Virus record (IMG/VR): IMGVR_UViG_3300015208_000001
Span: 1-51,707 of that record
Length of the DNA: 51,707 bases
Strand: one strand, 5' to 3'
From: a virus
Positions 7,175 to 50,897 of this stretch are shown here, piece after piece. Every line of letters begins with the position of its first letter. Position 1 is the stretch's first letter. The translations under genes were made by a program, and so were the position numbers. Under the pieces are notes generated by a model. The model was given only the letters and a program-made list of their open reading frames with translations. It was not told the origin of the DNA and searched no databases.

Positions 7175-7186
7175 TAGGAGTTTTTT

Positions 7187-11263: not shown

Positions 11264-11266
11264 GAA

Positions 11267-12924: not shown

Positions 12925-12979
12925 TTGACACTCTCAAGAATTTATATTTTTATCGTTAGCGAGTTCTTAATATCCTGAG

Positions 12980-13012
12980 AACGTTGAAACTACTGAACTT
13001 CAACGTTACAAT
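12980..13012 (+). promoter_or_regulatory. Promoter and operator of the HU gene
   Basis: A sigma70-like promoter TTGAAA (12984-12989), 17-base spacer, TACAAT (13007-13012). A perfect 9-bp inverted repeat, AACGTTGAA (12980-12988) and TTCAACGTT (12999-13007), overlaps the -35 and spacer, so a dimeric repressor or HU itself could regulate the gene. A second TTGACA (12925-12930) lies further upstream. Confidence 0.65.
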
Positions 13013-13039
13013 GCCCTCGCAAGCGATAAAGAGGGTTTT

Positions 13040-25170: not shown

Positions 25171-25220
25171 GGACTGCTCACGCCTGAGTTGAGATGCAAC
25201 ACACTACACACTGCATCTCT
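25171..25220 (+). promoter_or_regulatory. Conserved phage leader element, copy B
   Basis: Core GGACTGCTCACGCCTGAG, then hairpin arms GAGATGC and GCATCTC (7 pairs, 15-base loop) ending one base or less before GTG 25221. Compared with copy A, both arms changed together (G-C to A-U), a compensatory change. No GGGAACTCTAG box; a terminator stands in its place. Confidence 0.8.
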
Positions 25221-28019
25221 GTGAACGTCAAACAACTCAGGCAGACCGCAAAAGCTCAATACGCCCAAGGCAAGGGTCGGCGAGACCTTAAAGGCTATTC
25301 CCGCATGGGGAAGGCAGCGCTGCTGTCGAAGCTGGGAATGCACGAAGAGGCAAGGGCACACAAATCACAAGCCACACGCCGCAAAGCGATCGCGTTCAAC
25401 GCGACCAAAGAGGGCGGTGATAGTTCGGTCAAGAAAGCTCAGATCAAGGGTCGAATCCTTCGCTCTGTGAAGCGAGGCATCACTGCTGAAGAGAAAAAAC
25501 AGGGTCGCAAACTGACTCAAGAAGAGAAGCGCACCGTGGCAGCTAGGGCGTTAGCCTCTGAGGTGAAAGCCATCCGATCGGGCACTCCTGAGAGCAAGCC
25601 TAAGCGGGGTGGGAATCATCTTGAGGCTCAAATCTCAAACACCAAAGCCTCGATCGCTGACGTTCAGGCAAACATTCGCAAAGCAAAAGAGATTAGTGCA
25701 TCAACTGGGCAACCCTTCGATCGCTACCACAAAGCGATGAAAGGGGAGCTTGAGCAGCATAAAGCCTCATTGTCAAAACTGGAGAAGCAACACCTTTCCG
25801 CCATCAACCAAGGGCTAAAGCACGGGCATTCAGTTCAGCCGATCGAGGGTGGATATGCAATGTTTCAGGGTAGCGATCGGATTGGGAATCTAACCGCCAA
25901 AACTCCGCAGCAGGTTTTAGCCAAGAGCCAAAAGTTTGAGCAAGAAACTGAAGGCTATCAGTCGCAAAAGGGTAGTGGTCAGTCCAGCACGAATATTCCT
26001 GAAGCAGAACGCCGCCACGCCCTCAACACCTCACGAGATATCTTTGCCAGAACAGAGATCAAAAACCTGGATGACTGGGAGAAAGAGGCAAAAAGCCGTA
26101 AATCTCCACTATCTAAGGATATGAAGCAAGCCAGTCTCAAGAAGGCTCAACAGGCATTGACTGAGAAACAGGCGATTTGGCAGCGCGTTAATGATGCCCC
26201 TGAACAGAAAGCCGCTCAAAAGAGAACGAACGATTTTCTCTATAAATCCTCATTCAGCCACACCCCACCTCCCGGCGTAAGCGTTGCCGAACATCGCGCC
26301 AACTTGAGGCGGCAATATGGGGCAACGTCAGGCACTCGCAATGAGAATCTGAGCAAGAAAGAGGAACGACGATCGGCGATCGGGCGCGGTGACGAAGGCG
26401 AGAGCCGAATTAGAAAAAGTGAGGTTGCCGATCGGGTGACTGAGCCGAAAGGGGAACAAGGGAAGGCGGCAATCAGCAAAGAATTACAAAGGATGGTCGC
26501 TGAACGGGAATCCGGCAAACAGCAAGGCATGATTTCAGCAAACGATCATCAGACATTGTTTCAGTTCAAGAATATGGGAGATCTAGACTCTCAAGCTACA
26601 GACAAGGTAAAACAAACAGCCGCCAGAGTCTTAGGTGTTCACCATAGCGAGATCAAAGAACTAACACGGACATCGGTGGGGCTAAACGTCAGGCTGCGAA
26701 ACGAATCAAAACCAAGCTTCATTTCTGAGTCTGCCACACGACCGAGACAGATCGAAGTAAGAGACGAAAAAGCGATCAAAAAGGAAGCCAAAAGGCTATT
26801 AGATGAAGCCAAAACGGTAGCGAGAGAAAGAATTGCCGCGCGAGAGTCGGCAAACTTGCCTACGCCAAAACCAAACCCTCAATACAAGTATGAGGAGTAC
26901 ACCCCTCACGAGCAACAACTAGCCAAAATACACACCAGAGCCGAACTGGAGAAAATGCACGGCAAATTATTGGGCGCACAACCAGGAAACAGCGCTTCTC
27001 ACTTGAGAGCGATCGAGAAATCAACCTCGATGCAATCAAACAGCCAAGCGAGGGCGCAGTCTGGCAACGTTGTTAGGGGAAACTACGAGCAGAGACAGTC
27101 TTATAATCATGCCTTGGAGATTCACGATCACTACCCAGAAAAATCTAAGCAACCCGATCGGGTGACTGAGCCAGAGAAGGCGAAAAAGCCGTCAGCAACA
27201 CTGCTTGAAATGGCTAAAAACCTCCACAACCTAGACAGCAAGGATACTCATACCCTCAGACAAATGGCGGCGACTCATCTAGGTCTTGATGTCAGCGACA
27301 TTAAAGAAATGGGAGGCAGCGATCGAGGTCTGACAGTTACCCGTCGAAGTGGTCAAAAAACTCTAATTTCTGCTGACAGGTCCACCGCATCTAAGCCAGA
27401 ATCTAAAGCCCCCGATCGGGTGACTGAGCCAGAGAAGGCTAAAAACAGAACTCAATGGGATTCTTACGAGGGGAAGCAGCCCTGGGAAGCCGAAAGAAAC
27501 AAATACGGACAATCAATTTCAGCGATCGCAAAACCACTCGAAGGTCGAGTCTCTAGCGTCATTGAAAAACACCCCGATTTTGCAGATCTAAAGCAAAAAG
27601 TAGATCGATCTCTGGTTTCTACGTTTGGTAAAGGGAAGGTGCCGCCGCAGCATCAAACGGCTGAAAGCTACATAACTCATACCGAGTACAACTCTAAATC
27701 AAAGAGATCTCAGGAGATTGAAGCACTACAAGCCAAGATTCTGAGGGAGTCAGAAATTCCATCTCGCCGAAGTCAAACTGCGAGAGGTGCCACCCTTGAC
27801 TGGCATAAGATGGCTGTTCAATCTGCCCTAAAAGAAGGACAACCAGTTCCCGATCGCGTATTGGAAAGCTTTGGACTCTCACAAACCGCTCAACCCAAGC
27901 CAGAATCTTCACCGACCGTCACCCGTGGCACCAAAGCAAAGCCTTGGTCGGGGAATGATGCGCCGACCAGTACCCGATCGGGCAGAGGCGAAATGGTACG
28001 AGGGCGAAGTATCGACTAG
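25221..28019 (+). CDS. Large basic protein: shared N-module plus repeats
   Basis: 932 residues from GTG 25221 (VNVKQLRQTAK); an in-frame ATG at 25194 lies inside the leader hairpin and is unlikely. Residues ~1-125 are the shared module. Then long helical, Lys/Gln/Glu-rich regions. A DRVTEPEKAKK-type motif occurs three times (near residues 402, 644 and 730), and a ~50-residue domain is duplicated (near 451-500 and 668-715: TAARVLGVHHSEIKEL and MAATHLGLDVSDIKEM). No enzymatic domain recognised. Located between tail chaperones and tape measure; likely a virion-associated or injected protein. Confidence 0.75.
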   Translation: MNVKQLRQTAKAQYAQGKGRRDLKGYSRMGKAALLSKLGMHEEARAHKSQATRRKAIAFNATKEGGDSSVKKAQIKGRILRSVKRGITAEEKKQGRKLTQEEKRTVAARALASEVKAIRSGTPESKPKRGGNHLEAQISNTKASIADVQANIRKAKEISASTGQPFDRYHKAMKGELEQHKASLSKLEKQHLSAINQGLKHGHSVQPIEGGYAMFQGSDRIGNLTAKTPQQVLAKSQKFEQETEGYQSQKGSGQSSTNIPEAERRHALNTSRDIFARTEIKNLDDWEKEAKSRKSPLSKDMKQASLKKAQQALTEKQAIWQRVNDAPEQKAAQKRTNDFLYKSSFSHTPPPGVSVAEHRANLRRQYGATSGTRNENLSKKEERRSAIGRGDEGESRIRKSEVADRVTEPKGEQGKAAISKELQRMVAERESGKQQGMISANDHQTLFQFKNMGDLDSQATDKVKQTAARVLGVHHSEIKELTRTSVGLNVRLRNESKPSFISESATRPRQIEVRDEKAIKKEAKRLLDEAKTVARERIAARESANLPTPKPNPQYKYEEYTPHEQQLAKIHTRAELEKMHGKLLGAQPGNSASHLRAIEKSTSMQSNSQARAQSGNVVRGNYEQRQSYNHALEIHDHYPEKSKQPDRVTEPEKAKKPSATLLEMAKNLHNLDSKDTHTLRQMAATHLGLDVSDIKEMGGSDRGLTVTRRSGQKTLISADRSTASKPESKAPDRVTEPEKAKNRTQWDSYEGKQPWEAERNKYGQSISAIAKPLEGRVSSVIEKHPDFADLKQKVDRSLVSTFGKGKVPPQHQTAESYITHTEYNSKSKRSQEIEALQAKILRESEIPSRRSQTARGATLDWHKMAVQSALKEGQPVPDRVLESFGLSQTAQPKPESSPTVTRGTKAKPWSGNDAPTSTRSGRGEMVRGRSID

Positions 28020-33205: not shown

Positions 33206-33269
33206 GGGAACTCTAACCCGTAGGACTGCCCACGCCTCAGAGGGGATGCAACCCACTACAGCATCCCCC
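33206..33269 (+). promoter_or_regulatory. Conserved phage leader element, copy D (methyltransferase fusion gene)
   Basis: GGGAACTCTAA box next to the previous TAG, GGACTGCCCACGCCTCAG core, then arms GGGGATGC and GCATCCCC (8 perfect pairs, 11-base loop) one base before GTG 33270. The best example of the element. Confidence 0.85.
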
Positions 33270-35840
33270 GTGAACGTTCAGCAACTCAGACAGACAGCAA
33301 AGCAGAGATACGCCAGAGGGCAAGGACAGAGGAACCTCAAGGGCTATTCCCGCTTGGGTAAGGCGGCTCTGCTTTCTAAGTTGGGACTGCACGACGAAGC
33401 AAGGGCACACAAATCACAAGCCACACGCCGCAAAGCGATCGCGTTCAATGCGACCAAAGAAGGCGGCGATAGTTCGGTTCGCAAAGCTCAGGTTAAAGGG
33501 CGGATTCTGCGAAGCATCAAACGAGCCATGACCGCTAAGGAAAAGTCTCTAGGGCGTGAACTCACTCAGCAAGAGAAACGAGCGATCGCGGCAAAGGCTC
33601 TGGCAGTTGAGGTGAAGGCTATCCGATCGGGCAAACCTGAGATGAAGCCTAAACGGGGCAACGCTCAAAACCTTAAGCCTGCTGCAAAGAAAGCGGCGAA
33701 GTCTGCACCCAAGCGAGACTTACCCCCTGTTGATAAACCCATCTCGATCGAGGAGTTCCAAGATTTAAGAGGGCGGCTATCGAGAGGCGAAGCAACCGCC
33801 GACGAAATGCGGCACTCGTGGGAGAGATACAAAGCTAATCCACAGCTAATCGAGAGCGATTTAGGCAAGCTCAAGAAAGCCGACTTAATGAAGTATGGCG
33901 GAATGCACGTTCGCAGTAGCGATAAAAAAGCCGAGATGGTGAAGAGTGCCGTTGACTCCATAGAATCAACCTTTGCGCCCGGATCACTCAGCTACTCTAT
34001 GGGAGAGATGACCCCCGCAGGGTCTAAGGCTGCTAGGCACAAGGCGATCGACAAGGCTGTAAAAGAATGGACTGACGAAAGCATCCAGAAATCAGGGGCA
34101 GAACGCAAAGCCCGATTTGCTGCCACCGTCAAGGCAGTTAAGAACCCTGAAACCCTCGACGAGTTCAGAACCTTTGTCATGTACAAGGGTGAAAAATCTC
34201 TCACTCCAGAGCAGAAGCGTACGTTTGAAGATCTGCAAACTGAGAGCAGCAAAGGGCAGCGAAGCGTACAGGCAGCGCGAAAAGCTGACGTGGCACCCAC
34301 AAAGCTTGAAAATACAGAGTTTTCCTACTCCCAAGAGCAGCACACGAAAAAAGGCACTGACATTCACGTTGTCAAAATGTCGAACCGAGTCGATCGGGAT
34401 AAGTATGACGAGCTAAACATCAGAGCCAAGAAGTTAGGCGGCTATTACTCGAAATGGTCTAAGGGCTTCATCTTTGACGATAAAGACGGGGCTGATAAAT
34501 TCATGAGCCTCGATCGGGTGTCCGGTGAGGAGAAACACGCTCACAAACAGGAGGACAGCAAATCGAGAGCCGCCGATCGGATTCAGGAGCAGGCAGACAG
34601 GCTCAAACAGTCGTCAGAAGAGGATTCAGGGCGCGATCGCCTTGCCAACACCGCAAGACGGGCAAGCATGGCAAGCTCGGCGGAAGGTGCCGCTAGGGGT
34701 AATCTCAACCTTGCTACGACTATGCACAATACCGCAGAAGCGATCAGAAACAACGATGTCAAATTTATCGATCGTCTGAGCACAAAAGCCGATTTTGTCC
34801 AGATGACTCAGATGGTGAACGCTGCACAGTACGCTTACAGCCGAACCGATGCGATTAGCAAGCTACCCTATCGAGAACGAGAGCACGAACGCGAAAGACC
34901 CGCTAGGGATTCAGATATTGACCATGCTGAGTATCCCTATCCCTACTTGCATAAAGAAAACCTGCAAAAGTTCGCTCTGTCGGTTCGCGATAAACCAGGG
35001 CTGAAGCTGCAAGCAGATCGGATGCTTAAGAAAGTCGCGGCTCTCAATGGGGAAGATCAGCATCTCGTCCGGTTCAAAAGCCCTACTGATATTGAGGATC
35101 TGAGAGGGTTCTTGACTAAGGCTCATAAGGCGCTAGGAGGCGATCGCTATGACGACGAGCGGAGAAAGCAAACTTTTTCAGACTACGATCGGCTTCAAAA
35201 GTTAGATATCAAATCTCCGACAGAACTCAAGTCAGCACTTCGCGAATATCTGCAATATCGGGGCGATGCTGCTAAAGCCGATCCAATCAAGGCGATGGAG
35301 CGCGATCTAGTTGGCAAGAAGATCGATGGCTACTTCCCCACTCCTAAGCCATTGGCAGAGAGGCTAGTCGATGAAGCCGACATCAAACCGGGGATGAGAG
35401 TTTTAGAACCATCGGCGGGTAAGGGTTCTCTCGTGGATGCCATCAAGCAAGCACAACCAACCGCAGATGTCACCGCGATCGAGCCTTATAGCTCACTGCA
35501 TGACATCCTCAAAGCGAAGGGACACAACCCACTCCGAGAGGATTTTTTAGAGCATAAGGGGCAGTACGATCGGATCGTCATGAATCCACCGTTCGAGAAC
35601 GGGCAAGATATCGATCACGTTCGCCACGCCTACGATCAACTTGCTCCGGGTGGCAAGATGGTTGCGATTATGGGTGAGGGCGGATTCTTTAGAGGCGACA
35701 AAAAAGCGACGGACTTTAGAGACTGGCTTGACAATAAAGGTGTTTCTGAGAAGTTGCCAGAAGGAAGCTTTAAGACCAGCGACAACCCAACAGGCGTTAA
35801 TACTCGGATGGTTACGATCGACAAGCCCAGGAAGAATTGA
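33270..35840 (+). CDS. Large basic protein: shared N-module plus N6-adenine methyltransferase
   Basis: 856 residues from GTG 33270 (VNVQQLRQTAKQ). Residues ~1-130 are the shared module. A middle domain around residue 387 has KKLGGYYSKWSKGFIF, a short domain often seen beside methylase or helicase domains in polyvalent phage proteins. The C-terminal ~170 residues are a gamma-class-like methyltransferase: FPTPKPLAERLVDEA (motif X), VLEPSAGKGSLVDAI (motif I, ~711) and IVMNPPFENGQD (motif IV NPPF, ~772), then LAPGGKMVAIMGEG. Similar to P1 DarB-type injected methylases in concept: it could methylate incoming DNA. Next gene begins one base after its stop. Confidence 0.85.
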   Translation: MNVQQLRQTAKQRYARGQGQRNLKGYSRLGKAALLSKLGLHDEARAHKSQATRRKAIAFNATKEGGDSSVRKAQVKGRILRSIKRAMTAKEKSLGRELTQQEKRAIAAKALAVEVKAIRSGKPEMKPKRGNAQNLKPAAKKAAKSAPKRDLPPVDKPISIEEFQDLRGRLSRGEATADEMRHSWERYKANPQLIESDLGKLKKADLMKYGGMHVRSSDKKAEMVKSAVDSIESTFAPGSLSYSMGEMTPAGSKAARHKAIDKAVKEWTDESIQKSGAERKARFAATVKAVKNPETLDEFRTFVMYKGEKSLTPEQKRTFEDLQTESSKGQRSVQAARKADVAPTKLENTEFSYSQEQHTKKGTDIHVVKMSNRVDRDKYDELNIRAKKLGGYYSKWSKGFIFDDKDGADKFMSLDRVSGEEKHAHKQEDSKSRAADRIQEQADRLKQSSEEDSGRDRLANTARRASMASSAEGAARGNLNLATTMHNTAEAIRNNDVKFIDRLSTKADFVQMTQMVNAAQYAYSRTDAISKLPYREREHERERPARDSDIDHAEYPYPYLHKENLQKFALSVRDKPGLKLQADRMLKKVAALNGEDQHLVRFKSPTDIEDLRGFLTKAHKALGGDRYDDERRKQTFSDYDRLQKLDIKSPTELKSALREYLQYRGDAAKADPIKAMERDLVGKKIDGYFPTPKPLAERLVDEADIKPGMRVLEPSAGKGSLVDAIKQAQPTADVTAIEPYSSLHDILKAKGHNPLREDFLEHKGQYDRIVMNPPFENGQDIDHVRHAYDQLAPGGKMVAIMGEGGFFRGDKKATDFRDWLDNKGVSEKLPEGSFKTSDNPTGVNTRMVTIDKPRKN

Positions 35841-38921: not shown

Positions 38922-41762
38922 ATGCTCCTACAGTTTGCCAACGGTCGATCGAGCCTTCCAGCACCTACCCTCGCTATCACAAGCGGCGGAACCACTACAG
39001 CCAGTCGCACCCTCTACTTTGCGCTTCAGGGTCAAAATATCGCGGGGTACAACTTACTCAGCCCGATCGTAGGTCCGGTCACGATCGGCATTGGTCAGCA
39101 AGTCACCATCACGCTACCCTCGACGGTTCACAATCCAGGTGAATATTTCAGCGATTACGTCATCTCAACCTCACTCACCAACACAGCAGCCGATTTTGTG
39201 CAGGTTGCCAGGGTTGCTGCCCAAGGCTCAGGCGGGGCTAATATCAGCTTGCCAACGTCGATCGCGCTCTCAACTGATGAGCATTTCAATCTGAGCGCGA
39301 TCGTCGCCTCTCCGTCTACTCTGCCTACCACAAATCTGATTAGGGGAATGCGTCGCGGCGTTGCGTCACTGAATTATGTTTTCGAGTACGATGCTCTCAA
39401 CACACAAACATCTAACGCGACCTCTGTTCTGACCTCAGCACCCGCACCGGGAAACTGGGTTAGAGTCGGAGGTTTTTCTACGATCGTCGCCAACACAACC
39501 GATCCGGGTGGATGTGCTCAGGATATCAGCACCATTAGCGAGGGCGCGATCGTGCCTCCTCCCTACGCGCTCAATGGCTCAAATGGAGTCAAGGAACGGT
39601 TTTGGCTGGTCAACGACAGCAGCGAAGTCATCCCTTCTGGTTTGCGGGTAATGATCGGGGTGACGCTCGACGGTGCCCCCGCGTCAGGACTGCTTGAAGG
39701 CTTGCTACGCATTATTTTCAGGGGTTATGTCAACATATCCGATGGGTCGATCCGCACGACGACGACGGCGGGTATATCGATGCTAGGGGTTGATCAAGAG
39801 ATTCTATTTGAAAACAAGAAAACCGACTTAATCCTGCAAGATGACTTGCAGCCGGGAGAAGCTTATTCGATCGATATCTACCCAAATCTAAGACCTGAGT
39901 TTCTCAATAATCAGGTTTCTAACCATGCACTAATCCAGATATCCGTAGGTCTGGCTCTGCAAGCTGGGTCGTTTGTCGAAGGCGGTTCGGCGCAAGGTGA
40001 CAGAATCTACCCTGAGTTCGATCGGGGCATCGTCATCCCGCGCAAAGTTGGGGCAAAGTGCCTGAAACGATCGGGCTTGGTCAATTCCCGATCGTTTCTG
40101 GGAGTTTCGCCTAGTTTGGTTGTGGGGCTTCAACCCAACGCCTATCAGTTCCTCTACATAAATTCAAACGGATCTGTCTACCTCAAAGCTGAGGCAAAGC
40201 TGGACACTGAGGCAATCAGAGCTAAGATTTCAACCGTCGCCGGCGTGGGGAATGCTTCGCCCTGGTCAAGCCCGTTGACGATCGGCGCGGGTAGTGGCAT
40301 CAATATCATCTGCACTTATCCCTCAAATGGCACGAGTGGCACGATTCGCGCAAGCTACCCCGATCCGCTGCTCTCAGGCAATTCTCAGGGTGAGTTTAAC
40401 TGTCAGCTACTCACTCTATACCTGCGATCGACCGTGGCTAGTGTTGCCACGATTAAAAAGTTTGAAGGACGTTTGATCGTGGATGGTGCAACTCAAACTT
40501 TTCAGGTCAGCGGATGGAGTTCAGGAGTCACAATATCCACAGTTCCAGCCGCCCCTAGCCTTGATTTCTGCCTGTTTGATGCGGTTTCAGCAACCGTGAC
40601 GGCGGCGGGTGTGGGTGATTTGCCAGCAGGAACGATCGAGGTCGCCTTTGCTTATCAATTTGATGGCACTCAGATCAGCGCTATCAGCCATAGCTCGATC
40701 GACGGATGCCTGTTTACGAGCACACTCACTCAAGCTCAGATTGAGCAAGCCTCACAGTATTGGGGACCCGCAGTTGGGGCGATCGCTGACCTTAGAGCCG
40801 TGCCAACTGCTCAGATAATTGCCTACCAGTCTCGCTATGTCGCGGGGGTAAATAATCCCTATCGATACCTCCCATCGTCAACCGACACTGATGACGGGAA
40901 TATGATCGTCAAACCAGGCGCGATCGCGATTGGTCAGGCGGGGAGATGGGTCGCAGATGTTTCAAACGCAATTTACACCCTGACTGTGGCACCCACTTCG
41001 ACGACTCCGGGCGGGATTGGAGATATCGCGATCGTGGCGAACGTCGCATCGGCAGACAACGGAAAACTGTACCAGAAGACGAGTTTCACCACTTGGACGT
41101 TTCAGGCGACGATTATTGGACCTGTGGGCGCGACGGGGATTCAAGGGGTAGCAGGTGCGACGGGAAGCCAAGGAAATGTAGGGGTTACGGGCGCTCAAGG
41201 TTTGCCAGGGGAGACGGGAAGCCAAGGAAATGTAGGGGTTACGGGCGCTCAAGGTTTGCCAGGGGAGACGGGATCACCAGGAACCGTAACGGCGGCGGGT
41301 GGACTGATTATCGAGGCGACTGCTTCACTGGCTACGACCGCTACCCAGCTTGCCTTGAGGAATTCTGGCGGTATCCTGACGCTGCGAGATCCTAGCAGTG
41401 GGGCAGAGTCAACGATTGCCACTCTAGATAAATCTCAAGCCTATACAAAAGCCCAGCGATCAACTCCGGTGGCACTGACGGACGCTGCCTCAATTGCCAT
41501 TGATGTGAGTCTCTCAAACATGTACACCGTCACGCTTGCTGGGGCTAGGGCTTTGGCTAATCCGACTAACTTGCAGGCAGGATCGAACTTTGAAATCCGA
41601 ATCACTCCAGCAGGGCAAACGCTAACTTATGGCACTGCCTACAAGTTTCCGGGGGGCACGGTCCCAACCCTTAGTACAGCGGCAGGCGCGATCGATATCC
41701 TCTCTTGCCGCTCCTACGCTGGGCTGATAGTGCAATGCGATTTAGGAAAGGGTTACGCCTAA
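38922..41762 (+). CDS. Tail fibre protein with collagen-like shaft
   Basis: About 946 residues from ATG 38922 (MLLQFANGRSS); TTG 38895 and GTG 38913 are in-frame alternatives. Thr/Ser/Gly/Ala-rich, beta-dominated. Near residues 725-785 a collagen-like Gly-X-Y shaft (GPVGATGIQGVAGATGSQGN) contains two perfect 18-residue repeats, then a TATQLALRNSGGILTLRD head-type segment and a final beta domain (GTVPTLSTAAGAIDILS) typical of fibre tips. It is a trimeric host-recognition fibre in all likelihood. Confidence 0.85.
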   Translation: MLLQFANGRSSLPAPTLAITSGGTTTASRTLYFALQGQNIAGYNLLSPIVGPVTIGIGQQVTITLPSTVHNPGEYFSDYVISTSLTNTAADFVQVARVAAQGSGGANISLPTSIALSTDEHFNLSAIVASPSTLPTTNLIRGMRRGVASLNYVFEYDALNTQTSNATSVLTSAPAPGNWVRVGGFSTIVANTTDPGGCAQDISTISEGAIVPPPYALNGSNGVKERFWLVNDSSEVIPSGLRVMIGVTLDGAPASGLLEGLLRIIFRGYVNISDGSIRTTTTAGISMLGVDQEILFENKKTDLILQDDLQPGEAYSIDIYPNLRPEFLNNQVSNHALIQISVGLALQAGSFVEGGSAQGDRIYPEFDRGIVIPRKVGAKCLKRSGLVNSRSFLGVSPSLVVGLQPNAYQFLYINSNGSVYLKAEAKLDTEAIRAKISTVAGVGNASPWSSPLTIGAGSGINIICTYPSNGTSGTIRASYPDPLLSGNSQGEFNCQLLTLYLRSTVASVATIKKFEGRLIVDGATQTFQVSGWSSGVTISTVPAAPSLDFCLFDAVSATVTAAGVGDLPAGTIEVAFAYQFDGTQISAISHSSIDGCLFTSTLTQAQIEQASQYWGPAVGAIADLRAVPTAQIIAYQSRYVAGVNNPYRYLPSSTDTDDGNMIVKPGAIAIGQAGRWVADVSNAIYTLTVAPTSTTPGGIGDIAIVANVASADNGKLYQKTSFTTWTFQATIIGPVGATGIQGVAGATGSQGNVGVTGAQGLPGETGSQGNVGVTGAQGLPGETGSPGTVTAAGGLIIEATASLATTATQLALRNSGGILTLRDPSSGAESTIATLDKSQAYTKAQRSTPVALTDAASIAIDVSLSNMYTVTLAGARALANPTNLQAGSNFEIRITPAGQTLTYGTAYKFPGGTVPTLSTAAGAIDILSCRSYAGLIVQCDLGKGYA
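41162..41269 (+). repeat. Two perfect 54-bp tandem repeats in the collagen-like shaft
   Basis: Units 41162-41215 and 41216-41269 are identical and encode 18 residues each (SQGNVGVTGAQGLPGETG). Identity at all codon positions implies very recent duplication and likely copy-number variation. Confidence 0.95.
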
Positions 41763-42574
41763 TGTTTCCAAATTTGATTAGACCTGCGGGGTTTGGGGCG
41801 GCGATATCGCTACAGACTGAGACATCATCATGGATCTCAAGAGTGCAAGGGCTGGGCGGTCAACCCACAACGGCGGGAACTGCGGCGGTTGATGCCTTCT
41901 TTGTGGCGATTAAATCTCAGAGTTACTATGCCAACCTCAAACTTTTGCAGTTGTTCGCGGGTACAACCACGATCGCGTCTGCAATGGCACCGCTTCTACA
42001 CCCCACCAACACAGCCGCAACGTTAATAGGATTCTCTATCAGCGATTACACTGCGTCAGGTAGTGGCGCAGGTATCCAAGGCAACGGGTCAGGTTACATC
42101 AACCATAACTACAGTCTCTATGGCAATACTCCCGGCAGCAGCGCGGCGATCGGGACTTATAGCAAAACCGATGTCGGCTATGCTGTAGACGATGTAGGGT
42201 GCAATGTTTCAGCAAGTGCCCTGTTTGTGATTTCGGCAAAATGGACGGATGGCAACTGTTACGCCCCTTCTTTTGAATTACCCAATGGCGCGATTTCGAT
42301 AACCTCCCCAGGAGGCGCGGGTTTCTGCGTCCTGTCTCGCACTAGCCCGACCGATGCTCGATACTACCTGAGCGGCACACAGTACGGGATTGCCACGCCA
42401 GCAACATCTCCCATGCCTTCTGCGCTCAACGCCTTCTATTCGTTTGCCAGCGGCACCAGTGGATCTGGAGTATCCTTTCGTAAGCTAACCTTCAGTTTTG
42501 CTGCAACAGGCTTGACCCCTACGGATGTCGCTAACTTCTCAACCGCAGTCGCCACACTGGTAGGAGCGCTCTGA
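41762..42574 (+). CDS. Putative receptor-binding tail protein
   Basis: 270 residues; ATG overlaps the fibre stop (TAATG). Ser/Gly/Ala/Thr-rich with jelly-roll-like strands (YYANLKLLQLFAG, FYSFASGTSGSGVSFRKL) and a lectin-like layout. Similar phage proteins bind carbohydrates. Chained by a 1-bp overlap to the next gene. Confidence 0.7.
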   Translation: MFPNLIRPAGFGAAISLQTETSSWISRVQGLGGQPTTAGTAAVDAFFVAIKSQSYYANLKLLQLFAGTTTIASAMAPLLHPTNTAATLIGFSISDYTASGSGAGIQGNGSGYINHNYSLYGNTPGSSAAIGTYSKTDVGYAVDDVGCNVSASALFVISAKWTDGNCYAPSFELPNGAISITSPGGAGFCVLSRTSPTDARYYLSGTQYGIATPATSPMPSALNAFYSFASGTSGSGVSFRKLTFSFAATGLTPTDVANFSTAVATLVGAL

Positions 42575-43815
42575 TGTCCGATCGCACTCCTCAGCAAATA
42601 GCCGATCAGCTAAACTCTCTTCGCGCTCAGGCGGTGAGCATTGTCGAGGGCACGATCGCTGGTGCAGCAAATCCAGGCGGCTCGATCACGTTTACCTATG
42701 TCAACCCGATCGACCATCAGCCCTACACCGCGACGGGCACCGCATGGAATCAGTGCAGCCCTTCAAAGGTGTCTGCGTTGAAGCTTGAAGACGGCTCTTG
42801 GATTGTGGTAGGGGCGCATGAGTCGGCGATCGTTCGTGAAGCGGTGCATACCGATCGGCGGGCGCGACCTAAGCTTGAAACCGGGGGCAAAATTAAGGTT
42901 TTATATTCTGTGATCGAGGGCGATCAGAGGGTGTTTTACCTGTGGGGCGATCGTCCTAGACCTAAAAAGATTGGCAGCATTCCCGCAGTCGGAAGCGTTT
43001 TTATTGCGTCAATCGATAACAGAGGAGGAAACTCGTTTATTGTGGGTGTTTCTTGGGCAACCAATGCGGCTACTGGAATATTTCACTCACAGGTGATGGG
43101 TGATGAGACTTGGGTAGTTGACGAAACTTACGATGTAAGGTCAGGCTACGACTATGTAGGCAATGGATTTTGGAGTAAATACATCTCAGGGACAAACATT
43201 TTCGGCGGAGATGGACCCTTTCAAATCATACAGCCCGTCACTAAAAGCTTATATAAAAACCAAATACAAACTTACTCAGGATCAATTGCTACCACCGATA
43301 GTAACGGAGTTTTACTGACTGTCACCGAGAGCGGCATAAGGGCGATTGCACCTAATGTTACAAGGTTAGTATCCTCTAGTCTGTCTAGCCATATTGAAGG
43401 TTCAGTGGTCATTACTGATAGTTACAATTCTTCTACTCCTTTCCCAATAGTTATAGATAAAACAGGGAACTCAGCAGTTTATCGAGTTCTTACTGGACAG
43501 CGCGTCGCAAACGATAATGTTTTCTCGGATCAGTATCGAATGATTACTGGATCGAGCGATGAAGTGATTGCCGGAAACTTACCTCCTGGGCAAAGTTTTA
43601 TATCAGCGTCCCCCACCTATGGCGCAGTTTATCGTCTTGGCACTTTTGTAAACGGAAAATATTACATTACAAAATACGATGATCTGAGCAAATCTACCTG
43701 GGATATCGATGTCTACGCTCTTAGTGCAAACACCACAAAATCGACGATTAAAGCCAAAGTCACCTACAAGCCCACGACCGATAAAACTTTTCACAACGCA
43801 TCCTACTACCCTTAA
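42574..43815 (+). CDS. Putative tail fibre / adhesin with atypical C-terminal part
   Basis: 413 residues. The N-terminal ~140 residues (TPQQIADQLNSLRAQAVSIVEG, then an OB-like region VVGAHESAIVREAV) look like a conserved attachment domain with normal HIP1 density. From about 42980 the DNA becomes AT-richer and lacks CGATCG until the gene end, and the protein becomes Ser/Thr/Asn/Tyr-rich beta sheet. This looks like a swapped receptor-binding domain. The stop overlaps the stop of the convergent gene. Confidence 0.7.
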   Translation: MSDRTPQQIADQLNSLRAQAVSIVEGTIAGAANPGGSITFTYVNPIDHQPYTATGTAWNQCSPSKVSALKLEDGSWIVVGAHESAIVREAVHTDRRARPKLETGGKIKVLYSVIEGDQRVFYLWGDRPRPKKIGSIPAVGSVFIASIDNRGGNSFIVGVSWATNAATGIFHSQVMGDETWVVDETYDVRSGYDYVGNGFWSKYISGTNIFGGDGPFQIIQPVTKSLYKNQIQTYSGSIATTDSNGVLLTVTESGIRAIAPNVTRLVSSSLSSHIEGSVVITDSYNSSTPFPIVIDKTGNSAVYRVLTGQRVANDNVFSDQYRMITGSSDEVIAGNLPPGQSFISASPTYGAVYRLGTFVNGKYYITKYDDLSKSTWDIDVYALSANTTKSTIKAKVTYKPTTDKTFHNASYYP

Positions 43816-44192
43816 CGCTTCAGTTGTTTGTCGGCTCCCCCCGCAGCCACCAGGACGCTTAAGCTCCCGATCGCGCCTGCCGCTGATCCGATAATATCCA
43901 TCTCCTGTTTTGCGTTGTCGATCTTGCCGTCTGCCAGATCAACCGCCAACATCAGCCCGATCGCCAGTATTGATGCAATCCAGAGCAGGCACAGTGCGAG
44001 AACTCGGCGGTTGCTGGTGATGGTTTTAGCGATTTTGCCCGTCCGTTGTTGATGGAGCGTTTCAAGTTCGTCAAGTCGCTCTGAAAGGACAGCCGCTTCT
44101 TGCAGCCGATCGGCTTGGACTTGCTCAAGTTCAGACTTGAGCGACGTGACTTGACCCTCTAAAGCCTGAATGCGATCGTAAAAAGCTTGCAT
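43812..44192 (-). CDS. Coiled-coil protein with two transmembrane helices
   Basis: 126 residues from ATG 44192, which overlaps the pilin stop (TGATG). Residues ~1-55 form a coiled coil (QALEGQVTSLKSELEQVQ), then RRVLALCLLWIASILAIGLML and, after a short polar loop, GSAAGAIGSLSVLVAA. The layout suits a holin-like or pilus-associated membrane protein. Coupling to the pilin gene suggests a joint function. Confidence 0.7.
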   Translation of the reverse strand: MQAFYDRIQALEGQVTSLKSELEQVQADRLQEAAVLSERLDELETLHQQRTGKIAKTITSNRRVLALCLLWIASILAIGLMLAVDLADGKIDNAKQEMDIIGSAAGAIGSLSVLVAAGGADKQLKR

Positions 44193-44698
44193 CAGAGTTT
44201 TGTCGTTCCTTCGGCGCACGTTGGTTGATCGGCTGTGTTGACAGGAGGCGCGATCGGATCTGCCGTTGCAACTGATCCAGGAGTGTTCGACTCACACAAA
44301 ACAGCGGTCGTGGTCGCATCGCTACTCGCCTCCACAACCGAGATAGCCACCATCCCTGCATAAGATTTCAGTGCCTCCTTGCTAGAAGTCCCGTAGTTGA
44401 TGACCGACAGCGCTCCATCGGGAACTGGAGAGAACGTGTAGGTATAGTTTTCCGTTTGTGAAGGCACCGGGTTTGCGAGATCAACCAAGCTAGAGGCGAA
44501 TTGACTTCTCTCAAGATAATGAGCCTGCTGAACTCGGTTTAAGGTGCCCGTGTAGGTTTTGGCTTCAGACTGTTTGGCTTTATTCGCTTGGTTCAGGAAG
44601 GATGGAAGCGCGATCGCAGACAAAATGCCGATGATGATGATGACGACCAAAAGCTCGATCAGCGTGAAGCCTTCAGATGTGGCTGTTTTCGGGTGCAT
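44192..44698 (-). CDS. pilA-like: Type IV pilin-like protein (PilA family)
   Basis: 168 residues. The prepilin motif is EGFTLIELLVV: Gly10 before the cleavage, Phe11 as mature residue 1 and Glu15 as mature residue 5. The long hydrophobic alpha1-N (VVIIIIGILSAIALPSFLNQ) and ANKAKQSEAKTYTGTLNRVQQAHYL are typical of cyanobacterial PilA. Two cysteines near the C-terminus (LCESN and PTCAEG) can form the D-region loop. It is encoded beside phage tail and c-di-GMP genes and no pilus-assembly genes are present, so it must use the host machine. Could be a decoy, receptor blocker or modulator of host pili. Confidence 0.9.
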   Translation of the reverse strand: MHPKTATSEGFTLIELLVVIIIIGILSAIALPSFLNQANKAKQSEAKTYTGTLNRVQQAHYLERSQFASSLVDLANPVPSQTENYTYTFSPVPDGALSVINYGTSSKEALKSYAGMVAISVVEASSDATTTAVLCESNTPGSVATADPIAPPVNTADQPTCAEGTTKL

Positions 44699-44761
44699 AA
44701 GAAACTCTGGATAGGGTTGCAGCTAAAAGGCTTTGAAGTACGGCGTTTAGTGAAACATTCC

Positions 44762-44805
44762 CATCCGCAGAGAAGAAATACGCAAAAATTCGATGATTGC
44801 GGATG
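44762..44805. promoter_or_regulatory. Inverted repeat upstream of the pilin gene
   Basis: Perfect 8-bp repeat CATCCGCA (44762-44769) and TGCGGATG (44798-44805) with a 28-base AT-rich spacer, between the pilin start and the divergent leader copy E. Operator-like spacing. Confidence 0.45.
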
Positions 44806-44809
44806 ACAA

Positions 44810-44882
44810 GGGAACTCTGAGCAAAGAACAGGACTGCTCACGCCTGAGATGAGACGCATCCACCCCGAGCAGCTCAAACAAT
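44810..44882 (+). promoter_or_regulatory. Conserved phage leader element, copy E
   Basis: GGGAACTCTGA box, core GGACTGCTCACGCCTGAG, GAGACGC, then a weak start-proximal pairing (GAG / CTC). Precedes the gene at 44883 and proves that the pilin/EAL region is part of the phage element, not flanking host DNA. Confidence 0.7.
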
Positions 44883-45578
44883 GTGGCAATCTTTAGAACC
44901 TGGGCAAGAGAAATCGCCCACTGGCTTAAATCTCTCCTCAGATACTCCGATCGACCTCACCACGAGATCTTTGCTGAGGAATACCACGCCCACGCCGCTC
45001 TTTATCGAATCCACGATTCCGATATCCCCGGCTGTGTTGAACTCTGGAAAATTGTTAGGCGAAAACAGGGAAGCGACCTTATCGTCGTGCTGCTCGACAT
45101 CGCCCAACTTAAACAGGAGCTTGGAGTCAGAAATACTGGCGCACGATCTCGCACAGAGCATTGGCAGTCTAAGCTATCAAGACAATTGGCAACTGAGCTT
45201 AAAGCGCAATCTAGTGTGGAAGGCTCACATCTTATCGTCGTTTGCTGGATGTGCGATCGAGCCGGAGTCGATAAAAAGGGGCGGCGTTATCGTGTGCCTG
45301 TCGCTGTTTTGGTGGGCGCTTGGACTTGCGAACTACAGGGAATCATGGGCAGTCTCAACGGCAACCGTATCGCGATCGCAGTCGTCAAAGGTGTTGCCTA
45401 TAAGCTTTTTCGCGCTAAAAATGCGAACCCCCTAATCTGGGAACGGTTTGTAAATCAAGCCCCCTGGCTAGAATGGTTTGACGCTTATGCAAAGCACTAT
45501 TTAGGGCATGATCACGTCCTTCAGCCGTTGAAACGCAAGCCAGGGCATCCGATTGTTGAAAGACCTGAAACTTTGTAG
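44883..45578 (+). CDS. Hypothetical protein paired with EAL gene
   Basis: 231 residues from GTG 44883. Alpha/beta protein; LIVVLLDIAQLKQELGVR and the following helix resemble the LLDID-x-FK-x-I-N core of diguanylate cyclase GGDEF domains, but the GGDEF signature itself is absent. A C-terminal segment LEWFDAYAKHYLGHDHVL is distinctive. A competing frame on the same strand (44881-45435) is rejected since it ends early and reads HIP1 sites in an unusual phase. Stop lies 8 bp before the EAL gene, so one operon. Confidence 0.65.
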   Translation: MAIFRTWAREIAHWLKSLLRYSDRPHHEIFAEEYHAHAALYRIHDSDIPGCVELWKIVRRKQGSDLIVVLLDIAQLKQELGVRNTGARSRTEHWQSKLSRQLATELKAQSSVEGSHLIVVCWMCDRAGVDKKGRRYRVPVAVLVGAWTCELQGIMGSLNGNRIAIAVVKGVAYKLFRAKNANPLIWERFVNQAPWLEWFDAYAKHYLGHDHVLQPLKRKPGHPIVERPETL

Positions 45579-45586
45579 GCTTAAAT

Positions 45587-46285
45587 ATGTTTGCTTCTGC
45601 ACTCGCAAGAGACGACCTCTCAATGGTTTATCAGCCCCTTCGCCTGATATCAGCCTCGCCCAACGATGAAGCCGATTATTTTGAGGCGCTGCTGAGAGTG
45701 AAGGAAGTTAGCCCGATCACGTTTCTCGATCGGTTTACCGCTGAGGACTACTTTAAGCTCGATCCGTGGGTTGCCGAGCAGGTCGAGCTATTGCCTATCT
45801 GTCATCGCTACGCGATCAACATTTCGCCTTATTCCTTCTGCAATCGGGCGTTCATCGAGTCGCTGCTACGATCAGAGCATCATTTCGTGCTCGAACTTAC
45901 CGAACATCTCGCCCTCTCTTTAGCTCAGAACGATCTACTGGCTGTGATTTGCGCTCAGTTCCCGGTGATGCTTGACGACATCGGATCAGGTCATTCTGGT
46001 CTAAATCGGTTATTCGACTTTAACTTTAAGGGGATTAAGATCGATGGGCACTTGATCTTGCAGGTTGAGAAGAGTTCTAAAGCTCGCACGATCGTGGGTG
46101 GCTTGATGCGAATCGCTCAAGATCTACAGATCTGCTGTGTTTGCGAGTATGTCGAAACATTAGCGGTTTGGGAATGCCTTCGTGACATCCATGCTCAATG
46201 TGCTCCAGAGCTAGAACTATATGTGCAGGGTTGGGCAGTGGGGATGCCCGTTTCAATCCAAAAGGAAGCCCGATCGTCGGATTGA
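45587..46285 (+). CDS. EAL-domain c-di-GMP phosphodiesterase
   Basis: 232 residues forming a stand-alone EAL domain. All key positions are present: E33-A-L (FEALLRV), Asn78 (AINIS), ELTE at 103-106, D140-D141 (LDDIGSG), Lys151 (IKIDG), Glu187 (CEYVET) and Gln214 (VQGWAVG). Enzymes of this family hydrolyse cyclic di-GMP to pGpG. No sensor or membrane domain is attached. In cyanobacteria low c-di-GMP favours motility over aggregation. A phage copy next to a pilin gene suggests manipulation of host surface behaviour. Catalysis is predicted, not shown. Confidence 0.9.
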   Translation: MFASALARDDLSMVYQPLRLISASPNDEADYFEALLRVKEVSPITFLDRFTAEDYFKLDPWVAEQVELLPICHRYAINISPYSFCNRAFIESLLRSEHHFVLELTEHLALSLAQNDLLAVICAQFPVMLDDIGSGHSGLNRLFDFNFKGIKIDGHLILQVEKSSKARTIVGGLMRIAQDLQICCVCEYVETLAVWECLRDIHAQCAPELELYVQGWAVGMPVSIQKEARSSD

Positions 46286-46723: not shown

Positions 46724-47287
46724 ATGCAGATCGGTTACTGCCGAGTTTCGACTGACGATCAACTACTCAATTTGCAGAAGGACGCACTCATTAAAATTGG
46801 GTGCGACAAGATTTTTGAGGATGTGATGAGCGGGGCGAAAGATATTCGCCCTGGGTTGACCGATGCGCTGGAGTATTTAAGAGAGGGGGACACCCTTGTG
46901 GTGTGGAGGCTCGATCGCTTGGGTCGGAGCCTCAAGCACCTGATCAACACAGTCGAATCGTTAGAGCAGCGCAAGATCGGCTTTAAGTCGCTCCAAGAAT
47001 CGATCGACACGAGCACCAGCAGCGGGAGGCTAGTATTCCACCTGTTCTGTGCGCTGGCAGAGTTTGAGCGCAATTTGATTCGAGATCGGACTCAGGCAGG
47101 GTTGCAAGCAGCAAGAGCCAGAGGGAAGTCAGGGGGTAGACCCAAAGCCCTCTCTGCCAAACAGATAGAAATCGGCAAGGCGCTAGCCGCCGATAGAAAT
47201 CGACCCGTCAAAGAAATCTGCGAGCACATGAACATCAGTCGAGCGACGTTCTATCGTCATATCAGCCCGAAAGCTCCCGTGCTTTGA
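46724..47287 (+). CDS. Serine recombinase (resolvase/invertase)
   Basis: 187 residues. N-terminal catalytic domain with Ser9 (GYCRVSTDDQ), then VWRLDRLGRSLKHL and GRLVFHLFCALAEFERNLIRDRT (E-helix), typical of the Tn3 resolvase/Pin family. The C-terminal HTH (KEICEHMNISRATFYRH) binds DNA. A GAGG site precedes the ATG. Such enzymes resolve dimers or invert fibre segments. Its 3' end overlaps that of the convergent HTH-like gene by 26 bp. Confidence 0.95.
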   Translation: MQIGYCRVSTDDQLLNLQKDALIKIGCDKIFEDVMSGAKDIRPGLTDALEYLREGDTLVVWRLDRLGRSLKHLINTVESLEQRKIGFKSLQESIDTSTSSGRLVFHLFCALAEFERNLIRDRTQAGLQAARARGKSGGRPKALSAKQIEIGKALAADRNRPVKEICEHMNISRATFYRHISPKAPVL

Positions 47288-47837
47288 TCTGCCAGAGAGT
47301 TTGCCCAGACTGACGACCGATCGGGGTCGCTTGAAAACCATAGGCAGTCACAGGCTTTTTGAGAGAGCGTCGATCGAGCACCATCTTGAGATCCGATGAG
47401 GGGATGGGAGTCTGTCGATCGCTGAGTGTTTGCAGCAGGTCGATCCGCTCTTTGAGTTCTGCCAATTTAGTTTTTGGTGGGGTGAGACGGGTCGCGATCG
47501 CTTCTGCCAGTGCAGTCAGCGCGGCTGTGGGGTCGCTTTGAGTGATTATCTGGCTAGTCTCAGGAGTTGGCAGCGACTCAACAAAGCTCTCGATCGAGTT
47601 GCCTAATTTGATGTGATCATGCAGAGCGTCTAATAGATCGACCTGCTGGGCAGTCGCGATCGACTTGTTCCCCTTCTTCTCAAATTGCAGACTCAAGGCG
47701 CTAACCCGCTCATAAAAAGCGCTGCGCCCAAGGCTGTAGCGATCGGGCAAGTCTGCTACAGAGATTGAGCCAATTTGATATGTAGCAATGGTTTCATTGA
47801 CACTCTCAGCACTAAAGTGACTGAGATTCTTAATCAA
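47262..47837 (-). CDS. HTH-like protein, 5' end rebuilt by IS insertion
   Basis: 191 residues from TTG 47837. A HTH-like segment SISVADLPDRYSLGRSAFYERV lies near residues 25-45; the C-terminus is basic (RQSGQTLWQIKARELSG). The first ~12 codons lie in the right end of the IS605-type element, so the present N-terminus is not original. In a modelled empty site, TTGAT joined to the flank gives TTG ATT GAA ACC, a possible older start after an in-frame stop. Possibly a regulator or partition-type DNA-binding protein. Confidence 0.6.
   Translation of the reverse strand: MIKNLSHFSAESVNETIATYQIGSISVADLPDRYSLGRSAFYERVSALSLQFEKKGNKSIATAQQVDLLDALHDHIKLGNSIESFVESLPTPETSQIITQSDPTAALTALAEAIATRLTPPKTKLAELKERIDLLQTLSDRQTPIPSSDLKMVLDRRSLKKPVTAYGFQATPIGRQSGQTLWQIKARELSG
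47805..47825 (-). repeat. Right-end subterminal hairpin of the IS
   Basis: CTCAGCACT..AGTGACTGAG with one bulged A, matching the left-end copy except for one loop base. It lies inside the first codons of the downstream gene. Confidence 0.85.
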
Positions 47838-49336
47838 AACAATTGCAAACGCAACTGCTCAATCAATATCCGATTTTCAGGCATTGCCTTAAATATTCGG
47901 TTCCCAACCTGATCCCGTTTGCCACGAATGGCGGAATCATCTCTGTTGGGCGCTACTTTCCGAGAGTCCCCCGGTAGGTTTTTACGTCTTATACTGACGA
48001 ATTTTAGATCGGCTCTACGCAGTATGGTTCTAGATGCCTGAGTGTCTGCATGGTCGATGTGTCCGCACTGTTCACAGACAAATTTCTCTCCATCTCGATT
48101 CGATTTGCTGACATGATGGCAAGCCGAACACTCTTGAGAAGTATGTTTCGGATTCACAGATAGAACAGGCTTGCCAGACTTCGCGGCTAACCAAGCAATC
48201 TTAGAAAACAGTTCTCCCCAACTGGCATCAGAGATCGACCGATTCAAACCGCGTTTGGCAGATTGACCATTAGGCATGAAGCGACCGCTTGCCCGTTTAG
48301 GCTTGCAGCGCGACTTCATGCCCTTGATGTTGAGGTCTTCATGCACAACCGCTTCAGCCGTCTCTACAACCTTTTTAGCTGCTTTCCACTGATAGTCGTT
48401 GCGTCTGTCTGCAATCTTTTTGTGCAGTTTAGCGACTTCGATTCCTGCTTTGCGACGGTTGCTAGACCCTTTCACCTTGCGGTTCACGCGGCGCTGTCTA
48501 ATTCGCAGTTGGCGACGAGCCTTTTTGTTCGTTGAAAATTTGGGATTCTCAACGAATGAGCCATCAGACAAGGCAATCAGCCGATTGATACCTACATCAA
48601 TTCCCACCGCAGACTGAACCGTTTCAAGTTCTGCAACACCTGGCAACGACTCAGGCAAAACCAGCAACACGCTCATATACCAGCCGTCCGCTTCCTTCTT
48701 TACCGTGACGGTTCGGATGTCTGCATCGATGGGGATAGCTCGACTATCGAGATATCGCATATCGCCCAGCCCAGGAAGGGAAACGTGCGAGTAGCAGCGT
48801 TTTTTGTTAGATGAGCGATTGACCGTTAACTTTGCCTGACCTGGCTTGTACTGAAAACTGTTGAAATTAGAAGCTTTACGGAACGCTGGGAAGCCACGCT
48901 TATGTTGAAAGAATCCCGCGTAAGCAGCGTCTAACTTAGCAAGGTTGCCTTGCAAAACGCCTGAATATATGCGGCTGTAGAACGGGTTTTCTGCTCTCAA
49001 CTCGCTGGTTCGCTTGCTCTGAATGTCTGAAACATTTCCCCACATCAGCCCGTGTTTTTTGCTGGTTTTCGTCAATTCAGCAGACATCACGCCATGCTTA
49101 ATGACGGGGCAAGTCAGAGGGCAGAAAGCGCCGTATTCGATCTGGCTATCAATATCGCAGAAAGCGCCATACTCATACATCACGGGCTGATCTGAGTCTT
49201 GGTTATTGGACTCAAAACCGCGCTTACGTTCTGCTAAACAGTAATTACGATGTTTCCGCAGAGTAACAAGCCACTCACTCATAAGCGCTTGCTGCGTCTT
49301 ATTCGGTTGTAATTTGTAATTCCAGCGGACTTGCAT
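47834..49336 (-). CDS. tnpB: TnpB RNA-guided nuclease (IS605 OrfB)
   Basis: 500 residues. N-terminal HTH/OrfB region, then RuvC domain with Asp247 (GIDVGINRL), Glu333 (VVHEDLNIKGM) and Asp428/431 (GHIDHADTQ), and a zinc finger C403-x2-C406 with C421-x2-C424. All catalytic and metal positions are kept, so it should be active as an omega-RNA-guided nuclease that retains the element at its donor site. The omega RNA is expected from the 3' end of this gene into the right end, with the guide starting at ~47796. Confidence 0.95.
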   Translation of the reverse strand: MQVRWNYKLQPNKTQQALMSEWLVTLRKHRNYCLAERKRGFESNNQDSDQPVMYEYGAFCDIDSQIEYGAFCPLTCPVIKHGVMSAELTKTSKKHGLMWGNVSDIQSKRTSELRAENPFYSRIYSGVLQGNLAKLDAAYAGFFQHKRGFPAFRKASNFNSFQYKPGQAKLTVNRSSNKKRCYSHVSLPGLGDMRYLDSRAIPIDADIRTVTVKKEADGWYMSVLLVLPESLPGVAELETVQSAVGIDVGINRLIALSDGSFVENPKFSTNKKARRQLRIRQRRVNRKVKGSSNRRKAGIEVAKLHKKIADRRNDYQWKAAKKVVETAEAVVHEDLNIKGMKSRCKPKRASGRFMPNGQSAKRGLNRSISDASWGELFSKIAWLAAKSGKPVLSVNPKHTSQECSACHHVSKSNRDGEKFVCEQCGHIDHADTQASRTILRRADLKFVSIRRKNLPGDSRKVAPNRDDSAIRGKRDQVGNRIFKAMPENRILIEQLRLQLF

Positions 49337-49339
49337 AAT

Positions 49340-49528
49340 TTAGACCCAATCCTCTTTAGTGCATTCAATGGATTCGTATTCAGGGAATTCAATACCAGAA
49401 CGTTTAAGCTCTTTCTGCAAACGCTTGATCTTGCTCCATAAGCTATCCTCAATCGCTCCGTCCCCGCCAACATAAGACATTTCTTTTTGGCAGGCTTGAA
49501 TGTATTCCTCTAACAACTTGACGTTCAC
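49340..49528 (-). CDS. Small IS passenger protein, 62 aa
   Basis: GTG start, stop 3 bp before tnpB. Charged, helical (LLEEYIQACQKEMSYVG, WSKIKRLQKELKRSG). Lies in the divergent promoter gap side of the IS and may be co-transcribed with tnpB. No function known; could be a non-functional leader frame. Confidence 0.5.
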   Translation of the reverse strand: MNVKLLEEYIQACQKEMSYVGGDGAIEDSLWSKIKRLQKELKRSGIEFPEYESIECTKEDWV

Positions 49529-49614
49529 TTTGTTTACTCGTTTCTATCGACATAATTAATGTAGCACGGTACTCTAGAAGTGTCGATAACTTTTAGAAAT
49601 AAACAGACAGCCTT

Positions 49615-50016
49615 ATGATTGACACAAAAGACTACAAATCAGGGCATCATTCCAAATACCTAATCAACTATCATTTTGTCTGGTGTCCCAAGCGGCGCAA
49701 AAAGGTTCTCGTTGGAGAGATAGCAAAACGAGCTAGACAGATATTTGCAAATCTAGCCATTGAAAAAGAGTGGGATATTTTAGCCTTGGAGATTGCCTCT
49801 GATCACGTTCACCTGTTTGTATCGGTGACTCCCAACGATGCCCCTAATCAGGTTGTGAGAGCGTTTAAGGGACGGTCTAGCTTCTTTTTGCGTAAAGAGT
49901 TTCCAGAATTATTAAAGCTTCCTTCCCTGTGGAGTAGGAGCTATTTTGTCAGCACGGCTGGCAACGTTAGCAGTGAGGTCGTCAAAAAGTACATTGACGA
50001 TCCTCATCACGGCTAA
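49615..50016 (+). CDS. tnpA: TnpA, Y1 HUH transposase
   Basis: 133 residues. The HUH motif is ASDHVHLFVSV and the catalytic tyrosine lies in VVKKYIDD near the C-terminus. The start MIDTKDYKSGHHSKYLINYHFVWCPKRRK is the classic IS200-type N-terminus. Full family length. It catalyses single-strand excision and insertion at TTGAT-type targets. Confidence 0.95.
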   Translation: MIDTKDYKSGHHSKYLINYHFVWCPKRRKKVLVGEIAKRARQIFANLAIEKEWDILALEIASDHVHLFVSVTPNDAPNQVVRAFKGRSSFFLRKEFPELLKLPSLWSRSYFVSTAGNVSSEVVKKYIDDPHHG

Positions 50017-50213: not shown

Positions 50214-50897
50214 TTATGCCGCAGTGTCCGCTGGCTTTTTAGCGTGGGATTTTCTCTTAGCGGCTGGCTTGGCAGCAGGTGCCTGGTTGCCGTTTGTGGT
50301 GACTTCCTCAACCGTGACCCCAGTTGCCGATAACCGATCGAGCATCGCTTGCAACTGTCCGATCTGTTGCCTGATCATCTGCTCGGCAATGGAGGTCGCG
50401 ACATAAAGCTGCGGGCTTCTGTTGAGGATTGACTGGCGACATTCATCAGCGGATCGACCCGTTACGATCCCCATCTCTGCTGTCAAATCGTCGAGCGACA
50501 TGAAAGTCGGCGCTTCGGCTTTGATGGCAGGGACGATCGCAATCGCTTGAACTTTTGCTTGAGCTTTTGCGGGGCGTTCGGCGGTGGCTGTAGGCATAAC
50601 TATTTGGGGCAAGGGGTCTTTCTCTGAGTTTACTTCAGAAATCGTTGTCTCGCGCCATACCTCAACATCCGCGAACCAAATCGAAACCTCGATCGCGCCG
50701 AAAACATAGTAGGCAGTGCTTTTCAGCCATTCGATGTCAGTCGTGAGATCGTCAACATGAGAGGGGCGATCGACGGCGATCAGGAGTTGAGCGTCAAGGG
50801 TGAACGATACGATCGCTCTATCTGGTACGGGATAAATCTCATAGAAGCGATCGATGGATGAGTCGGTGAGCTTGGCGCGATCGTTGGGGTTGAACAT
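50214..50897 (-). CDS. Hypothetical protein with Lys/Ala-rich tail
   Basis: 227 residues. N-terminal alpha/beta domain (VPDRAIVSFTLDAQLLIAV, STAYYVFGAIEVSIWFADVEVW), a linker rich in Ala/Lys, a helical segment (MIRQQIGQLQAMLDRLSATG) and a basic C-terminus PAAKRKSHAKKPAD resembling histone H1-like tails. No family recognised. Ends at a strong terminator. Confidence 0.65.
   Translation of the reverse strand: MFNPNDRAKLTDSSIDRFYEIYPVPDRAIVSFTLDAQLLIAVDRPSHVDDLTTDIEWLKSTAYYVFGAIEVSIWFADVEVWRETTISEVNSEKDPLPQIVMPTATAERPAKAQAKVQAIAIVPAIKAEAPTFMSLDDLTAEMGIVTGRSADECRQSILNRSPQLYVATSIAEQMIRQQIGQLQAMLDRLSATGVTVEEVTTNGNQAPAAKPAAKRKSHAKKPADTAA

Follow-up and report, generated by a model that had tools for sequence, protein, structure and literature searches.

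A stand-alone EAL-domain gene, encoding a putative c-di-GMP phosphodiesterase, in a probable temperate cyanobacterial phage

The EAL gene and its neighbours

An open reading frame with an ATG start, its limits exactly those first noted, encodes a stand-alone EAL-domain protein (Table 1). It is found in a window of 51,707 bases (the whole stretch of DNA analysed, an IMG/VR record), which has no end repeats and carries genes for a large terminase, a portal protein, scaffold-like and major head proteins, a DNA methyltransferase and a tyrosine integrase. The EAL gene is the second of an apparent two-gene cassette. An upstream open reading frame of 231 amino acids stops 8 nt short of the start codon of the EAL gene, and the two therefore probably form one transcription unit. 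Codon usage of this upstream frame is coding-like, which is not so for the frame that overlaps it. No relatives were found in Pfam, PHROG, plasmids or viral contigs, and a single-sequence AlphaFold model is uninformative (pLDDT 38). By eye, the sequence resembles a degenerate GGDEF domain (LLDIAQLKQELG). The Pfam GGDEF model, however, has no match at any position of the window, a threshold of E<=10 notwithstanding, and with a likeness that lacks profile support and an uninformative fold, this identity is not claimed.

Table 1. Features at and around the EAL gene (positions in the window)
Feature	Position	Strand	Evidence
Phage gene left of the cassette	42574..43815	+	Residues 1-173 vs pLBA: tblastn 6e-24, phmmer 5e-27
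Type IV pilin-like protein	44192..44698	-	PF16734 (Pilin_GH) 1e-28, PF07963 2e-6
Divergent intergenic region; expected promoters of the pilin gene and of the two-gene cassette	44699..44882	.	Layout only
Orphan open reading frame, 231 aa, GTG start; candidate co-transcribed partner of the EAL gene	44883..45578	+	Coding-like codon usage
Stand-alone EAL-domain protein, putative c-di-GMP phosphodiesterase, 232 aa	45587..46285	+	Pfam, AlphaFold2, catalytic residues
Serine recombinase, DNA-invertase type	46724..47287	+	PF00239 4e-46; phrog_125 DNA invertase 4e-71
Right-hand phage gene with pLBA homologue	47262..47837	-	1e-14 / 2e-17
Second right-hand gene with pLBA homologue	50214..50897	-	4e-12 / 2e-11; also 9e-12

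The predicted pilin has an N-terminal methylation motif and a Pilin_GH domain; it has no detected relatives in phages, plasmids or viral contigs. The earlier note had described the EAL gene as lying beside the pilin gene, which is loose wording, as the two are 888 nt apart (measured from the EAL start) and on opposite strands, with the 231-aa frame between them. Opposite strands exclude co-transcription. No sigma-70-like site is reported in the divergent intergenic region, where counts are at chance level, and promoter- and terminator-like sites around the cassette are not clearly above chance.

A phage element related to plasmid pLBA

The closest relative of the element is pLBA (NZ_AP014639), a plasmid of Leptolyngbya boryana and apparently a phage-plasmid. 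The two share long collinear stretches and a phage backbone of portal (64% identity), tape measure, tail, integrase and methyltransferase genes. The tape measure protein also has relatives in phages of Nodularia, Planktothrix and Aphanizomenon. The cassette has genes with pLBA homologues to its left and to its right, and the left-hand one has its pLBA counterpart adjoining a pLBA tail gene. The EAL gene is therefore inside the phage element, and assignment to a host flank is rejected.

A second IMG/VR record, 99.4% identical, covers positions 1-14987 of the window only, and the EAL region is thus represented by one assembly. This record runs beyond the left end of the window into a VapE-like protein; the window is therefore a fragment of a larger element. 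Look-ups in IMG/VR with the terminase, tape measure, portal and tail proteins returned only this near-identical fragment and two weak partial terminase matches.

What is the host? The HIP1-type motif GCGATCGC is present in 45 copies compared with approximately 0.9 expected, as in cyanobacterial DNA, and within the EAL gene the density of CGATCG is 4.3 per kb vs 0.26 expected. This excess points to a cyanobacterium. Composition is continuous. The carrier is most likely a temperate cyanobacterial siphophage or phage-plasmid and the EAL gene a moron: it is situated between phage genes, and is present in the element under study while absent from pLBA, with no orthologue in IMG/VR. The view that a stand-alone EAL domain with intact catalytic residues resides in a temperate cyanobacterial phage is thus borne out.

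Domain, fold and active site

The Pfam EAL model (PF00563) matches residues 4-204 of the protein with E=2e-28 and 99.8 bits, well above the cut-off of 31.3, and the match takes in almost the whole profile (6-226). Compared with the codon usage of the phage itself, the frame also scores as coding. EAL is the single recognisable domain, and the earlier statement that there is no sensory domain is therefore right. An AlphaFold2 model built from an input alignment of 61 EAL domains has a mean pLDDT of 90.4 and superposes on solved EAL structures with Z up to 24.0 and rmsd 2.2-2.5 over approximately 220 aligned residues. Catalytically competent EAL proteins top the list of structure matches (Z 22-24). 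The matches include Bd1971, YahA with Mg2+, BifA, MucR, RocR, PdeA and the stand-alone Vibrio EAL protein 6ifq/6ij2, with Z 20-24 for YahA-Mg, MucR, RocR, PdeA and 6ifq/6ij2.

Among the closest known systems are stand-alone EAL phosphodiesterases, e.g. the Vibrio cholerae O395 protein 6ifq/6ij2 and the Escherichia coli YhjH/PdeH type. Like the phage protein, these consist of one EAL domain, have the full set of catalytic residues and lack a sensor. The phage protein differs in being encoded by a cyanobacterial phage, in a diverged loop 6 and in the motif EYVE, and its identity to 6ifq/6ij2 is approximately 23%. Among solved structures, the EAL domain of Klebsiella BlrP1 is closest in sequence (5e-12), and it has active-site motifs in common with the phage protein. 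BlrP1 has a BLUF light sensor, which the phage protein lacks.

The active site was compared with 7 relatives and with 64 distinct EAL domains that viral contigs encode. All metal-ligand and catalytic positions are present, i.e. E33 (of the EAL motif), N78, E103 and E106 (ELTE), D130, D131, K151, E187 and E190, and Q214, and these are invariant or near-invariant in both sets. R37 and the KID motif are also retained. The earlier claim that all EAL signature residues are kept holds for these ligands but does not extend to loop 6 and the EGVE motif. The loop has the sequence DDIGSGHSG where DDFGTGYSS is usual, or DIGSGHS against a consensus of DFG[TA]G[YF]S. At the position of F132I, Phe is found in 64/64 comparison domains and Ile in none. 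The Tyr to His change (H136) is shared with 6/64. In addition, EYVE replaces EGVE (G188Y), at a position that is Gly in 62/64 and Phe or Trp in the other two. Loop 6 of EAL enzymes matters for catalysis. As F132I and G188Y fall at positions that almost never change, activity is less certain than the words 'catalytically complete' imply. Nevertheless, judged from its residues, the protein is likely to be active as a c-di-GMP phosphodiesterase.

c-di-GMP enzymes in viruses

How rare is such a gene? A scan of approximately 2.9 million IMG/VR contigs shows that at least 155 encode EAL, a lower bound as a single conserved EAL motif was scanned. Many of these are large multi-domain proteins that may lie in host flanks. 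The earlier note's view that c-di-GMP-degrading genes are rare in phages stands, but precedents exist. No relatives of the phage EAL protein above approximately 32% identity, and no close orthologues, were detected in phages, plasmids, one genome per bacterial and archaeal species, or IMG/VR viral contigs, the single-protein look-ups in IMG/VR and genomes being of a kind that reaches close relatives only. A structure search of predicted viral proteins (BFVD) gave no confident EAL match, only weak matches to unrelated proteins (best E 2e-3).

One precedent is the EAL protein of Citrobacter phage Chris1 (UOL51131.1). It is also phage-borne, and its gene sits between a DNA invertase and an integrase, near tail fibre genes. 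It differs in its size (approximately 520 aa, with an N-terminal region), its enterobacterial host and its sequence (28% identity). A recurrent EAL protein of 520-521 aa, near that of Chris1 in length and domain layout, is found in many isolate-derived viral contigs, which suggests a widespread prophage-borne phosphodiesterase family.

Another precedent is a contig of 249,797 bp (IMGVR_UViG_3300033143_001962) that carries a T4-type Gp23 capsid gene together with two EAL and three GGDEF domains. At 5989-7699 of this contig, a PAS-GGDEF gene begins 5 bp after the end of a stand-alone EAL gene; the contig also encodes a GGDEF-EAL protein and one more GGDEF. These genes are a phage-encoded set that makes and breaks c-di-GMP. 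Two more phage-like contigs carry stand-alone EAL genes. Terminase models have no match on the comparison contigs; it is therefore from other genes that these contigs are taken to be phage, securely so only in the case of the one with Gp23.

Synthesis of c-di-GMP is represented too. Mu-like viruses of the Cariaco Basin encode diguanylate cyclases (PMC7785012). These too are viral c-di-GMP enzymes interpreted as auxiliary, although for synthesis rather than degradation and in other hosts. The phage EAL gene is thus real but not unprecedented, as virus-borne c-di-GMP enzymes are already known. pLBA offers a comparison within the lineage: no EAL gene was found in it, but it does encode a divergent GGDEF protein with the motif SGDEV. 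This protein is short (25 bits; L008:24208-24708, i.e. pLBA 74208-74708). pLBA also carries a family-2 glycosyltransferase (39716-41227), for which the annotation is cellulose synthase.

Possible roles of the EAL protein

The reading we favour, with a probability of about 0.6, is that the gene is a minimal, unregulated phosphodiesterase moron that lowers host c-di-GMP. The protein would be expressed, probably together with the upstream 231-aa frame, and would linearise c-di-GMP to pGpG. The level of c-di-GMP would then fall in the infected or lysogenic cell, which may push the host away from a sessile or flocculating state and alter surface properties that depend on type IV pili.

What might the host experience? 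In Synechocystis, c-di-GMP reduces motility and represses pilA5-pilA6 and pilX1, and it accompanies pilA9-12 expression and flocculation (PMC7690835, PMC12288463). Dgc2, a GGDEF protein, suppresses gliding in L. boryana, where wild-type cells stay non-motile despite overexpression of E. coli yhjH or the native pde1 (PMC10581220). Thus a phosphodiesterase was not sufficient to make L. boryana motile, and the control of motility or biofilm state that the earlier note drew from the pilin is a hypothesis; the link is one of proximity, given the strand and the gene in between. An effect of the EAL protein on host motility, pili or aggregation is possible, though we would not count on it.

An alternative is that the EAL protein is a weak or dead enzyme that binds c-di-GMP or a host partner, i.e. 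a receptor or adaptor like FimX, LapD or YdiV, possibly acting with the 231-aa protein. F132I and EYVE, outliers among the 64 domains, would fit this, and the non-catalytic FimX, LapD and YdiV also superpose on the model (Z 20-21.6). FimX controls type IV pili, and a pilin gene is nearby. However, EAL proteins of the FimX or YdiV type typically lose several catalytic or metal ligands, whereas all are conserved here, and it is competent enzymes that head the structure matches. A receptor or adaptor is unlikely, but it is the alternative to be taken most seriously.

Could the gene be a neutral passenger, recently acquired from a host and unselected in the phage? Its absence from pLBA and the variable look of the region, which adjoins an insertion sequence and a recombinase, point that way, and the lack of an orthologue in pLBA and other viruses means that conservation gives no evidence of selective retention. 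Against this are the intact frame, catalytic residues conserved at no more than approximately 32% identity to any EAL found, and the coding-like codon usage; the cyanobacterial-type CGATCG density speaks against a very recent non-cyanobacterial origin. A passenger is therefore quite improbable. The same low standing is given to an elaboration of the phosphodiesterase moron, in which the two-gene cassette would be a dedicated c-di-GMP control unit that sets the pilus or surface state, or the choice between lysis and lysogeny, with pLBA using an opposing cyclase-like gene.

Counter-defence, in which the enzyme would destroy c-di-GMP or a related cyclic dinucleotide of host immunity (e.g. STING-type CBASS) instead of tuning motility, is very improbable. 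c-di-GMP is a signal of some STING-CBASS systems. Phage nucleases that cleave CBASS signals are known (PMC9117128), but neither the window nor pLBA gives a hint of such a role, a literature search gave no EAL-type anti-CBASS protein, and a system of this kind in the host is hypothetical. Finally, that the gene belongs to a host flank or a chimeric contig is very unlikely: the second record supports positions 1-14987 only, and many EAL genes of other viral contigs sit near contig ends, but the cassette is bracketed by pLBA-homologous genes and composition is continuous.

The phosphodiesterase moron is of interest as a compact and likely active EAL protein whose lineage has a relative in a tractable cyanobacterial host. 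Few viral c-di-GMP enzymes exist, and they have received little study. A cyanobacterial phage lineage in which one member has EAL and another a GGDEF-like gene would make phage steering of pili, aggregation or motility via c-di-GMP testable, and L. boryana is genetically tractable, with c-di-GMP mutants and assays at hand (PMC10581220).

Rearrangements and repeats elsewhere in the element

A perfect 18-bp inverted repeat (41677-41694 and 43868-43885) encloses the last part (3') of the tail-fibre gene together with the next two genes. The segment between the repeats may be an invertible tail-fibre segment; a DNA-invertase-type recombinase is encoded at 46724-47287 (Table 1). To the right of the cassette are a TnpB-like open reading frame (47834-49336) and an apparent IS200/IS605-type TnpA (49615-50016), both named by eye. 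Neither frame (47834-50016 together) has a CGATCG site, compared with approximately 6 per kb elsewhere in the phage, and a recent insertion is therefore suggested.

Four large proteins (13312-15600, 25194-28019, 33246-35840 and 9715-11196) share a similar N-terminal stretch of approximately 120 residues. It matches pLBA at 33.6-33.9 kb (4/4) and at 12.7-13.1 kb and 15.7-16.2 kb (3/4), and constitutes an N-terminal module that recurs in phage proteins which otherwise differ.
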